Shown here piece by piece: positions 17,355 to 21,872 of a stretch of 64,000 nucleotides of DNA. Below the pieces are notes generated by a model that worked only from the letters and a program-made list of their open reading frames with translations, was not told where the DNA came from and searched no databases. The stretch's first letter is position 1, and every line of letters starts with the position of its first letter. This DNA comes from Melioribacter sp. (GTDB lineage: Bacteria; Bacteroidota; Ignavibacteria; Ignavibacteriales; Melioribacteraceae). The DNA lies in NCBI GenBank assembly GCA_026417975.1, contig JAOACD010000009.1:124001-188000 (forward strand), written 5' to 3'. Both the position numbers and the translations under genes were made by a program.

Positions 17355-19223
17355 TTAAACCGATTTTGTGAATTTTTTAAGTAGCAACTTTTTTTCTTCT
17401 AAAAGTTCTTTGTTCTTTTGCAATAATTCTATTTGTAAATGTTCGTCTTTAGTATTACCTATTATTTCGTTGTTTATTCTAATTTGCTCTTCGATTTGAT
17501 GTACTAAAAATTTTATTACAGTTTCTCTAGCATAATCAATCGTATCTCTTTCAATTTTTCCGTTGAGTGAATATTCATTCCATTTATAGCTTATAGGGTT
17601 ATCATCAAGTGTAAGTTTATAAATAAAATCTTTTAGTTGCGGTTCGTTTATTTTCTCAATCAAATATGCTGGAGAAATTTTTTTGTCATTAAAACCTTGT
17701 ATAACAATCTCTACTAACAATTTTGTTTTAGGGTTAGAAAAATTTTCGGTGCTTATATTTTCGAGTATTAATTCTACAATTTCTTCGTTGCCGCTATAGA
17801 GTAATCTAATAAGTTCTTTTTCATGTAAATTTATTTCTTTTACAAAATCAATTGAAGTAAGAGATTCTATTAATTTAGGAGCTTTTTTAGATGTTTGGAT
17901 AGTAGACAAGTTATTTTTTTGTTGGTATGAATTTAAAAAGTTATTGAGCTCGGTTTCAATTAGCTTTTCTCTCAAATTGAATTTTTTTGATATAGATTTA
18001 ATATATAAACTGCGTTTAAGTTCATCATTAACTAATGCTAAAGTTTTGACTAGTTCCCTAATTGTTTCTGCTGCTTTAACAGGGTCTTCGAATTTCCCTT
18101 CTGCTTCGAATTGTGATGTTTGGTATTCAAGAAAATTTTTTGCGGATGATATTAGTTCTTCAAATTTTTCTTTTCCAAATTTATTAACGAAGGAATCTGG
18201 GTCTTCATTTTCTGGTAAAGATACAACTTTTATATCAAAATCCTGCTTTAATAATAGTTCGATACTTCTAATAGATGCTTTTTGTCCTGCTGGATCTGCA
18301 TCAAAGATAACCACAATGTTTTTTGTAAATCTAGATAAGAGTTGTACTTGTTCTTCTGTAAGTGAAGTTCCAGAAGAAGCTACTACATTTTTTATTCCTG
18401 CTTGATATAATGAAATCAAATCTAAATAGCCTTCGACAAGAATAGCGCGGTCTAATTTTCGGATTTCTTCTTTTGCGTGAAATAAACCGAAAAGAGATTT
18501 TCTTTTTGAATAAATGGGAGATTCAGGCGAATTCAAATATTTTGCTGTTGTATTGCTATCGTGAAGTATTCTTCCGCCAAAAGCAATAACTCTTCCATTA
18601 GGTGAAAAAATCGGAAAAATTATCCTGTCTCTGAACTTATCATAATATTCACCTTTTTCATTAATATCAATTAAACCAAGAAGCTTGGCCTTTTGTAAAT
18701 TAATTTTATTTTCCTCTGCTGCTCTTAGAAAATTGTACCATCCTGATGGAGCATATCCAATCCCAAAAATTCTCTGAGTTTGTTGTTTGATATTTCTCTT
18801 TTTAAGGTATTGGCGAGCATCTTCGGCTTCATGACTTTTTTGTAGTACATCTACAAAAAACCTTGCTGCAAAGACATTAATTTCATAAAGTTCTTCTAAC
18901 TCACTTTGATATTCAGAAACTTCTCCCTTTACGTACTGAATTTTTATTCCTAAATGATTAGCTATTTCTTCGACTGCTTCAATGAACGAAATATTTTTAT
19001 ACTCCATCAAAAATTTAAATACATTGCCTCCAGCACCGCAACCAAAACAGTGGTAAATTTGTTTATCACTACTTACAATGAATGAAGGCGTTTTTTCCTG
19101 ATGAAAAGGGCATAGGCCAACAAAATTTTTGCCTCTTTTGCGTAAATGAACATATCCAGAGATTATATCAACAATGTCTACTGAACTTCTTATTTCCTCA
19201 ATCTTGTCTTCGGGTATTCTCAA
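17355..19223 (-). CDS. dnaG: DNA primase DnaG
   Basis: DnaG makes the RNA primers for replication. The 622-residue protein has the CHC2 zinc-binding domain (C38, H41, C59, C62; 'CPFHQEKTPSF' and 'HCFGCGAGG'), the catalytic core with RNAP-basic motif region, and a TOPRIM domain with ILVEGYLDLISL and VVIFDADPAGQKAS, whose Glu and Asp residues bind metal. A long helical C-terminal region from about 420 would contact DnaB. Length and order are normal. A promoter candidate lies at 19260-19292. The downstream GH13 gene appears to be a passenger in the same transcript. Confidence 0.97.
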   Translation of the reverse strand: MRIPEDKIEEIRSSVDIVDIISGYVHLRKRGKNFVGLCPFHQEKTPSFIVSSDKQIYHCFGCGAGGNVFKFLMEYKNISFIEAVEEIANHLGIKIQYVKGEVSEYQSELEELYEINVFAARFFVDVLQKSHEAEDARQYLKKRNIKQQTQRIFGIGYAPSGWYNFLRAAEENKINLQKAKLLGLIDINEKGEYYDKFRDRIIFPIFSPNGRVIAFGGRILHDSNTTAKYLNSPESPIYSKRKSLFGLFHAKEEIRKLDRAILVEGYLDLISLYQAGIKNVVASSGTSLTEEQVQLLSRFTKNIVVIFDADPAGQKASIRSIELLLKQDFDIKVVSLPENEDPDSFVNKFGKEKFEELISSAKNFLEYQTSQFEAEGKFEDPVKAAETIRELVKTLALVNDELKRSLYIKSISKKFNLREKLIETELNNFLNSYQQKNNLSTIQTSKKAPKLIESLTSIDFVKEINLHEKELIRLLYSGNEEIVELILENISTENFSNPKTKLLVEIVIQGFNDKKISPAYLIEKINEPQLKDFIYKLTLDDNPISYKWNEYSLNGKIERDTIDYARETVIKFLVHQIEEQIRINNEIIGNTKDEHLQIELLQKNKELLEEKKLLLKKFTKSV

Positions 19224-19337: not shown

Positions 19338-19871
19338 ATGAATATAAATTATTTAATTAAAAACAATATCCTTTTAATCCTACCTGCAAAGGATTTTAAT
19401 GAGCACGAATATTTAATCATTTCTAAAGCTTTAATTGGTGCTGGCAAAAAAATATACATTGTTTCAGATTCAAATTTTTTATGTGTTGGTATGGATAGAC
19501 TAAGAATTGTAAAGGATATTCATTTTTATAATATTCATGAAACAAATTTTAGTTCAGTTATATTTATTGGTGGAACTGGTACAAGAAAATATTTGGATAA
19601 TAAACTTTTGTATTCAGTTACACAAAATTTTAACAATAAAAAGAAATTAATAGAAGCTATTTATAGTGCTCCAGTAATTTTAGTTAAAGCATGTGTAATT
19701 GAAAAAGCTGGTACTTTTTAACTGGATGATAAAAGAGAATTGGAAACTGCTGCAATAAAATATATAGACCAACCAGTTGTAATCGAAAAAAATATAATTA
19801 CTGGAAGAGATCCAGCATCTGCCTTGGAATTTGTTGATAAGTTTTTAATGGAATTTTCAAAGAGTTTGTAG
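19338..19871 (+). pseudogene. DJ-1/PfpI family gene interrupted by an in-frame stop
   Basis: One continuous frame of 178 codons reads as a DJ-1/PfpI-family protein: LILPAKDFNEHEYLIISKAL, a central SSVIFIGGTGTRKYL strand, APVILVKAC, and, beyond the stop, ELETAAIKYIDQPVVIEKN and TGRDPASALEFVDKFL. A TAA at 19719-19721 (codon 128) splits it. The 49 codons after the stop keep family sequence in the same frame, so this is a nonsense change rather than a true end. In addition, the nucleophile position, normally Cys in AIC.AP, is Tyr (AIYSAP), a TGT to TAT change. Either a decaying gene or, for the stop, a sequencing error. TAA is used as a normal stop elsewhere in the window, so recoding is unlikely. 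Confidence 0.8.
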
Positions 19872-19895: not shown

Positions 19896-21872
19896 ATGAA
19901 AAATATGAAAACTAAAGTTGAATTAATAAAAAAGTATTGTAATAGCTTAACAAAGTACACACGTTATAAAACCAGAGAAGTTTTTATAGGCGATATACCT
20001 CTCGGGGGAAATAATCCTATCCGTATTCAATCGATGACTACAACCAACACAATGGATACCATTGCAACTGTTGAACAAGCTATTAGAATGATAGAGGCAG
20101 GTTGTGATTATGTTAGAATTACCGCTCCAAGCATCAACGAAGCAAAAAATTTATTAAACATAAAGAATGAATTGAGAAGAAGAGGTTTTAGGACTCCATT
20201 AATTGCAGATATCCATTACACGCCGAATGCTGCTGAGATAGCTGCAAGAATAGTTGAAAAGGTAAGAATTAATCCTGGCAATTTTGTAGATAAAAAGAAA
20301 TTTCAAATTATTGAATATACTGATGCTCAATATAATGAAGAACTTGAGAGAATTAGAGAAAAACTTATTCCATTATTGAAAGTATGTAAGGAATATGGTA
20401 CGGCAATTCGAATAGGAACAAATCACGGTTCACTATCAGATAGAATAATGAGCCGTTATGGAGATACTCCACTTGGAATGGTTGAATCTGCCATGGAATT
20501 TTTAAGGATATGTGAAGAAGAAAACTTTCATTCAGTTGTGCTTTCTATGAAAGCAAGTAATCCGCAAATTATGGTACAAGCTTATCGTCTTTTGGTTAAT
20601 AAAATGGAAGAAGAAGGGATGAATTATCCATTGCATCTTGGAGTAACTGAAGCTGGCGATGGTGAGGATGGAAGGATTAAGTCTTCTGTAGGAATAGGAA
20701 CTTTGCTTGAAGATGGCTTAGGAGATACAATTAGAGTTTCTTTAACCGAAGAACCAGAGTATGAAGTTCCTGTAGCAAAAATACTTGTAAGTAGATATAA
20801 AGGAAGAGAGAATCATAAACCAATTGTTGAAATAAATGATAATCCTATAGACCCTTTCAGTTATAAAAGAAGAGAAACATTTGAAGTGGCCAATATTGGA
20901 GGCACAACAGTTCCAAAGGTTATATCTGATTTTAGTGATTTAATGAACTTAACATTCGAAAATTTTGAGGATATTGGATACAAGTATGATAAGGTAACAG
21001 ATAAGTGGTCATTAACCGATTTTGCCTCGGATATAATTTACCTTGGCAAAAATGAATTGCACTTTGAGCCACCTGTTAACCTAAAAATTGTTTATGATTA
21101 TGAAACATGGAAAATGTTATTAAATAAAACTAACAGCTACCCTCTTTATAAAAGTTGCAAAGAATTTTTATTGGCAGGTAATAAATCATTTTTGCTCAAT
21201 TTTATTGAAATAGGTATAGATGATATTTTTTCTAATGAATTTAACAGTGTTGCAAATAAAAATAATGTAGTTTTTGTAGTTAATACCAATAATTTGCATG
21301 GAATGGCAGAACAAAGAAGGATATTTTTTGAGTTTGTAATAAAAGATATTAAAAATCCAGTTATTATTAGAAGAGATTATCAAAATATTAATGAAGAAAA
21401 GCTTAGGCTTTATGCTTCAACAGATTTAGGAGCACTTTTAATAGATGGTTTTGGTGATGGGGTTTGGATTACTGCTAAAAACGAAAATGGTCAAAGCTTA
21501 AGCAAGTCTTTTTTGAATAGAACCTTATTTGGTATATTACAAGCTGCGAGAGTTAGAATCACAAAGACAGAATATATTGCTTGCCCTTCATGTGGTAGAA
21601 CCTTATTTGATTTGGTTGAGGTTACGAATAAAGTTAGAATGAAAACAGAGCATTTAAAAGGCTTAAAAATTGCAATTATGGGTTGTATAGTTAATGGGCC
21701 AGGGGAAATGGCTGATGCAGATTACGGGTATGTAGGCTCGGGTCCAGGAAAAGTTACTTTATATAGAGGTAAAGAAGTCGTTAAAAGAAATATTAGCGCA
21801 GAAAATGCTCTAAATGAACTAATTGAATTAATCAAAGAAGATGGCAAATGGGTAGAAAAAAAGGATTTTTGA
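19896..21872 (+). CDS. ispG: 4-hydroxy-3-methylbut-2-enyl diphosphate synthase, long form
   Basis: IspG (GcpE) reductively opens the cyclodiphosphate in the MEP isoprenoid pathway. The 658-residue protein is the three-domain form known from plants, chlamydiae and Bacteroidota/Chlorobi, with an extra domain of about 250 residues between the N-terminal TIM barrel (IRIQSMTTTNTMDT near 30) and the C-terminal iron-sulfur domain. The 4Fe-4S ligands are C563 and C566 (CPSCGRTLFDL) and C597 (MGCIVNGPGEMADADYG). A second in-frame ATG at 19905 is possible. It follows the broken DJ-1-like gene by 24 bases and ends before a strong terminator. Its product feeds the squalene genes at 39-42 kb. Confidence 0.96.
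   Translation: MKNMKTKVELIKKYCNSLTKYTRYKTREVFIGDIPLGGNNPIRIQSMTTTNTMDTIATVEQAIRMIEAGCDYVRITAPSINEAKNLLNIKNELRRRGFRTPLIADIHYTPNAAEIAARIVEKVRINPGNFVDKKKFQIIEYTDAQYNEELERIREKLIPLLKVCKEYGTAIRIGTNHGSLSDRIMSRYGDTPLGMVESAMEFLRICEEENFHSVVLSMKASNPQIMVQAYRLLVNKMEEEGMNYPLHLGVTEAGDGEDGRIKSSVGIGTLLEDGLGDTIRVSLTEEPEYEVPVAKILVSRYKGRENHKPIVEINDNPIDPFSYKRRETFEVANIGGTTVPKVISDFSDLMNLTFENFEDIGYKYDKVTDKWSLTDFASDIIYLGKNELHFEPPVNLKIVYDYETWKMLLNKTNSYPLYKSCKEFLLAGNKSFLLNFIEIGIDDIFSNEFNSVANKNNVVFVVNTNNLHGMAEQRRIFFEFVIKDIKNPVIIRRDYQNINEEKLRLYASTDLGALLIDGFGDGVWITAKNENGQSLSKSFLNRTLFGILQAARVRITKTEYIACPSCGRTLFDLVEVTNKVRMKTEHLKGLKIAIMGCIVNGPGEMADADYGYVGSGPGKVTLYRGKEVVKRNISAENALNELIELIKEDGKWVEKKDF

Follow-up and report, generated by a model that had tools for sequence, protein, structure and literature searches.

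We analyzed a 64,000-nucleotide window of the genome of Melioribacter sp. (Ignavibacteria), which covers positions 124,001 to 188,000 of contig JAOACD010000009.1 in assembly GCA_026417975.1; all coordinates given below are positions in this window. A Pfam profile scan identified, at 19338-19871 on the forward strand, a gene of the DJ-1/PfpI family (PF01965). Its translation consists of 127 residues, a TAA stop codon, 49 further residues, and a TAG stop codon. The N-terminal part of 127 codons spans 19338..19718, the premature TAA is codon 128 (19719..19721), and the C-terminal remnant, which continues in the same frame for 49 codons and ends with the TAG at 19869-19871, occupies 19722..19871. 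The 127 residues preceding the stop scored 47.8 bits against the DJ-1_PfpI profile and covered profile positions 4-114 of 165, whereas the read-through protein scored 78.4 bits and covered positions 4-163, a near-full span that is reached only when the stop is ignored. Since the score increases in this way, family sequence is present on both sides of the TAA at codon 128, as a previous sequence-only reading of this DNA had proposed, and the truncated 127-residue product lacks profile positions 115-165. Possible in-frame starts within the remnant are TTG at 19740, TTG at 19824, ATG at 19848, and TTG at 19866, and there are no others. A profile search of the genome retrieved a single full PF01965 match, which is the gene described here; two other places match about 58 profile positions only, one of them above the cutoff. 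The assembly has a completeness of 79% and could thus lack a paralogue.

The divergent neighbor at 17355..19223 on the minus strand is, as judged from its sequence, presumably dnaG (primase), and ispG (GcpE; PF04551, E value of 6.1e-124) is an open frame located at 19896..21872 on the plus strand, 24 bases past the end of the remnant. The placement directly upstream of ispG, already pointed out in the sequence-only reading, is conserved: in 45 of the 50 homologous loci searched, some of which are from the same genome, ispG is found 3' of the DJ-1 gene and on the same strand. Three of the other five loci (L054, L086, and L090) reach contig ends, and no ispG match was found in the remaining two (L093 and L094), which belong to other phyla or are unplaced. 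On the opposite flank, most of the loci with sufficient sequence carry a divergent dnaG, which in some is separated from the DJ-1 gene by a few kilobases; the DNA retrieved for G023 and G036 gave no dnaG match. The names nif3-like, zinc-ribbon, and amylase-like used below for neighboring genes are likewise our presumptive readings of their sequences. A scan for sigma-70 promoters gave 5 sites versus 6.4 expected, and one terminator-like site was detected on the minus strand; neither was used in the analysis.

The nucleophile motif of the window copy is AIYSAP, with Tyr109 (TAT, 19662..19664, plus strand) in place of the catalytic cysteine. To place this residue among homologues, we aligned 117 sequences, namely, the window copy, 36 loci from related whole genomes, and 80 named loci; some genomes are represented twice, and the named loci are a nonrandom sample, since they were fetched via the motif just after the Cys and with Gly119 demanded. 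The Cys column contained Cys in 114 sequences, Ser in one (L026 of genome G040), Tyr in the window copy alone, and a gap in one fragment; Cys is found in 114 of the 115 other sequences with a residue. The 36 whole-genome loci by themselves gave 34 Cys, 1 Ser, and 1 gap. Removal of near-identical rows left 58 distinct Ignavibacteria-type sequences, 54 of which have more than 150 residues; the 57 others in this set showed 55 Cys, 1 Ser, and 1 gap, so that the Tyr claimed by the sequence-only reading stands against Cys in 55 of 56 distinct homologues with a residue. A divergent copy in G030 with Gln in place of the Cys was found later and is outside these counts. The catalytic Glu (Glu24), which is Glu in 113 of the 114 rows with a residue, window included, and the GG pair are retained in the window copy. 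In terms of what a functional DJ-1/PfpI enzyme contains, the gene thus has the conserved N-terminal Glu and, upon read-through only, a near-full profile match, and it lacks the nucleophilic Cys and an uninterrupted frame.

Seven further departures that the sequence-only reading had not mentioned were detected at columns at least 90% conserved, namely, F40Y, G54R, V57I, A116V, G119C, C127F, and G139A. Together with C109Y, six of these eight (C109Y, F40Y, A116V, G119C, C127F, and G139A) are unique to the window copy in the distinct set, and for the latter five the usual residue is kept in both congeners (G001 and G002) or in the one with data. G119C (TGT, 19692..19694, plus strand) affects a position that is Gly in 34 of the 35 whole-genome loci with a residue. 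G54R and V57I are weaker departures, with Arg or Ile common to some other members and Asn at position 54 in both congeners. Among the 54 sequences, the window copy had the highest number of departures at columns at least 80% conserved (13 of 47) and at least 90% conserved (8 of 34, seven of which precede the stop), and it ranked second at columns at least 95% conserved, with 3 of 22 versus 4 of 23 in the full-length G040 copy.

We then compared the rate of evolution of the DJ-1 gene with that of five neighboring control genes, namely, dnaG, ispG, and the nif3-like, zinc-ribbon, and amylase-like genes. In protein trees, the DJ-1 branch from the genus node was 0.487 in the window lineage as compared to 0.146 and 0.165 in the congeners, corresponding to an approximately 3-fold difference; the largest ratio among the controls was 1.7-fold, observed for the nif3-like gene (0.271 versus 0.164 and 0.157). 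Tajima relative-rate tests with two congeners and four outgroups gave P values of 0.0004 to 0.043 for DJ-1 in all eight comparisons, which share sequences and are not independent. For the controls, tested with one outgroup, all ten comparisons gave P values of 0.069 to 1.0; the amylase-like gene also leaned to the window lineage (38:24 and 44:30, P = 0.075 and 0.10). When the protein was split at the stop, both parts were accelerated, with branches of 0.509 and 0.403 versus 0.13 to 0.18 in the congeners; the Tajima counts for the part after the stop are small.

A number of results at the codon level bear on the loss of constraint. (i) Lineage-specific changes at codon positions 1, 2, and 3 were distributed 21:27:22 in DJ-1 versus 250:146:487 in the pooled controls (Fisher P = 1.6e-4), and no such shift was seen in the DJ-1 genes of the congeners (P = 0.74 and 0.17). 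(ii) In a joint codon model of six genes with shared branch times, the relative omega was 1.85 for DJ-1 versus 0.86 for the rest, a 2.2-fold difference (P = 6.5e-5). None of the controls taken in turn as the test gene was significantly raised (dnaG, 1.06 versus 0.89, P = 0.21), and the zinc-ribbon gene was lowered (P = 0.006). (iii) A two-ratio model of DJ-1 alone showed no significant rise (omega of 0.032 versus 0.016, P = 0.44) and is uninformative because synonymous change is saturated. (iv) An omega of 1 over the whole window DJ-1 branch was rejected by the single-gene model (P = 3.7e-4), and an omega of 1 throughout fitted far worse in an earlier, incompletely optimized joint run (lnL of -36281 versus -36207); the null fit of the final joint model is about 10 log units above that run. 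A neutral phase can therefore cover only part of the branch, and we conclude that the gene was constrained for most of it, with the constraint lost late. (v) In neutral simulations starting from the G001 copy, the probability of at most one stop was 0.67 after 30 substitutions and 0.28 after 70. The single stop and the absence of indels are compatible with tens of neutral substitutions.

The DJ-1 gene is also frequently missing or altered in relatives. We searched 58 genomes, including that of the window, and obtained a protein match in 40. The flanks of ispG were inspected in the 18 genomes without a match and in G046, G049, and G054, which had weak or odd matches, and all but one of these 21 genomes gave an ispG match. 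In 17 of the 20, no DJ-1 gene was found beside ispG within flanks of about 1.5 kb or up to the contig end; of the other three, G049 and G054 carry the gene, and the copy in G030 is full length and very divergent. In 11 of the 17 (L140, L142, L144, L146, L147, L152, L153, L155, L156, L157, and L158), the dnaG match is separated from the ispG match by 126-232 bp that contain no DJ-1 gene; for the remaining six, the distance is 565-1347 bp in three, and no dnaG match lay within reach in three. The suggestion of the sequence-only reading that decay of the gene may affect ispG finds no support in these data, as ispG is an open frame in the window, evolves at a normal rate according to branch lengths and the Tajima test, and stands this close to dnaG in 11 relatives that lack DJ-1. 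As a separate observation, ispG of the single-contig relative G046 (L156, at about position 1513) is distributed over two frames, with the change near codon 283; this is either an error or a real break.

In an ispG tree of 54 genomes (without G010, G015, G031, and G052), the DJ-1 absences formed 14 separate clades, a figure that is an upper guess from one poorly resolved gene tree with loss, not gain, assumed. This distribution suggests that relatives may have lost the gene several times. Other copies are damaged or have replaced active-site residues. The gene in G028 (L040) contains an 11-base tandem duplication (L040:275, 275-296) that shifts the frame near its start and keeps the catalytic Cys; G040 (L026) has Ser for the Cys and Gly for the catalytic Glu in a full-length open frame; and G030 (L154) has Gln for the Cys and, with the Glu aligned by eye, Ala for the Glu, also in a full-length open frame. 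An internal stop in G027 was considered as a further lesion and rejected, since it precedes an in-frame TTG able to start and the remainder is open. None of the 36 homologous loci is split at the position of the window's stop; in G002, contig ends interrupt the copy. When the window protein was the only query, an initial scan of named genomes retrieved no relatives. Matches obtained in 114 of 245 genomes of the class mix the DJ-1 gene with paralogues and were not used.

Taken together, these data indicate that the window gene is a recent pseudogene of what is the sole full DJ-1/PfpI match in a genome 79% complete, a reading to which we assign a probability of about 0.86. It carries disabling lesions relative to orthologues at the same place, and the loss of constraint is confined to the affected lineage, with the reservation that the single-gene model is nonsignificant and that neutrality over the full branch is rejected. 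The view of the sequence-only reading that the gene is losing function is thus supported by the lesions, the acceleration in the window lineage, and the loss or breakage in relatives. Selection on the gene would have been lost late in the lineage, after which changes may have accumulated freely; the truncated product would neither fold nor work, because it is without the nucleophile and the last third of the domain. Several observations count against a pseudogene: (i) the copy contains no indel, (ii) the single-gene codon model gave a P value of 0.44, (iii) an omega of 1 was rejected, (iv) the G040 copy exceeds it at the columns at least 95% conserved, (v) at columns at least 90% conserved, all but one of the eight departures precede the stop, and (vi) the amylase-like control leans the same way.

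The main alternative, which the sequence-only reading had also raised, is a full-length, noncatalytic DJ-1 variant that is still in use and whose stop codon is an artifact of sequencing or assembly. A single base separates the TAA from the Tyr codons, and the column of the stop, which by eye probably corresponds to pocket residue H126 of human DJ-1 (F127 in YajL), contains Y 50, F 38, W 15, H 8, S 2, L 1, and N 1 in the 115 other sequences, i.e., an aromatic residue or His in 111. The missing indel, the rejection of an omega of 1 along the whole branch, and the Cys-less full-length copies of G040 and G030 are in agreement with such a variant, as is the best-scoring solved structure, PDB 4HCJ, a ThiJ/PfpI domain protein that, like the window gene, lacks the nucleophile Cys in the profile alignment (Gly occupies that column); 4HCJ, however, is a full-length protein, unlike the interrupted window gene. 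Most of the window runs collinear with a single stretch of G001, of the same genus, in which 48 of the 49 listed window genes have an in-frame match above 40% identity, each in one frame. A general sequencing error is unlikely because DJ-1 is the only one of these 48 comparable genes with an internal stop; for five other genes, stops were found in the same-frame match upstream of the listed ORF starts and are outside the genes. The acceleration on both sides of the stop also counts against this alternative, as do the replacements F40Y, A116V, G119C, C127F, G139A, and Cys to Tyr, absent from other distinct homologues and from congeners. We consequently regard an erroneous stop in a living variant as improbable.

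Still less probable, to a degree that we consider it slight, is that the 127-residue product or a reinitiated C-terminal piece is a working shortened protein. The N-terminal part does retain Glu24 and the glycine pair, but it is devoid of profile positions 115-165, both parts are accelerated, the in-frame starts after the stop are TTG codons and a single late ATG, and a split at the same place was seen in none of the 36 homologous loci. Decoding of the TAA as an amino acid, by recoding or readthrough, is favored by nothing but the continuation of the frame past it, and we give it next to no weight, since the DJ-1 TAA is the sole internal stop among the 48 genes compared.

The window gene is best described as a real but ordinary pseudogene, which resembles common bacterial nonsense pseudogenes in its stop, in the loss of an active-site residue, and in its faster evolution in one lineage, with no distinctive difference from them. 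A more speculative extension, which we consider doubtful, is that the DJ-1 gene beside ispG repeatedly passes through a noncatalytic full-length stage (Ser in G040, Gln in G030, and Tyr in the window), in which it would have a temporary second, nonenzymatic role, before it is lost; the window copy would then represent the last step of a route from enzyme to pseudoenzyme to pseudogene.

The gene is similar to members of the DJ-1/PfpI family (PF01965; NCBIfam TIGR01382 for PfpI and TIGR01383 for DJ-1) in its sequence, catalytic Glu, and glycine pair, and its orthologues mostly carry an AICSAP-like nucleophile motif; it differs in its premature stop and in the absence of the nucleophilic Cys. The one orthologue scored, that of G001 (L005), was below the curated cutoffs of both NCBIfam models. 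By analogy, the intact orthologues are most likely cysteine-dependent DJ-1-type hydrolases or glyoxalases that clear reactive by-products. For human DJ-1, two reports state that C106S abolishes the hydrolysis of cyclic 3-phosphoglyceric anhydride and list E15, E18, G74, G75, and P158 as essential (PMC10915168, PMC12135873). According to the second report, YajL alone among the prokaryotic homologues tested showed the activity found in human DJ-1 (PMC12135873). In the limited collection of literature searched, we found no paper on DJ-1/PfpI pseudoenzymes with cysteine loss, on DJ-1/PfpI proteins of Melioribacter or Ignavibacteria, or on pseudogenes of Melioribacteraceae. The present analysis corrects the reading of one gene and provides a clear example of a DJ-1 gene in the course of being lost. 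A group in which DJ-1 is missing, frameshifted, stopped, or Cys-less depending on the lineage is a natural place to ask when this enzyme is dispensable.
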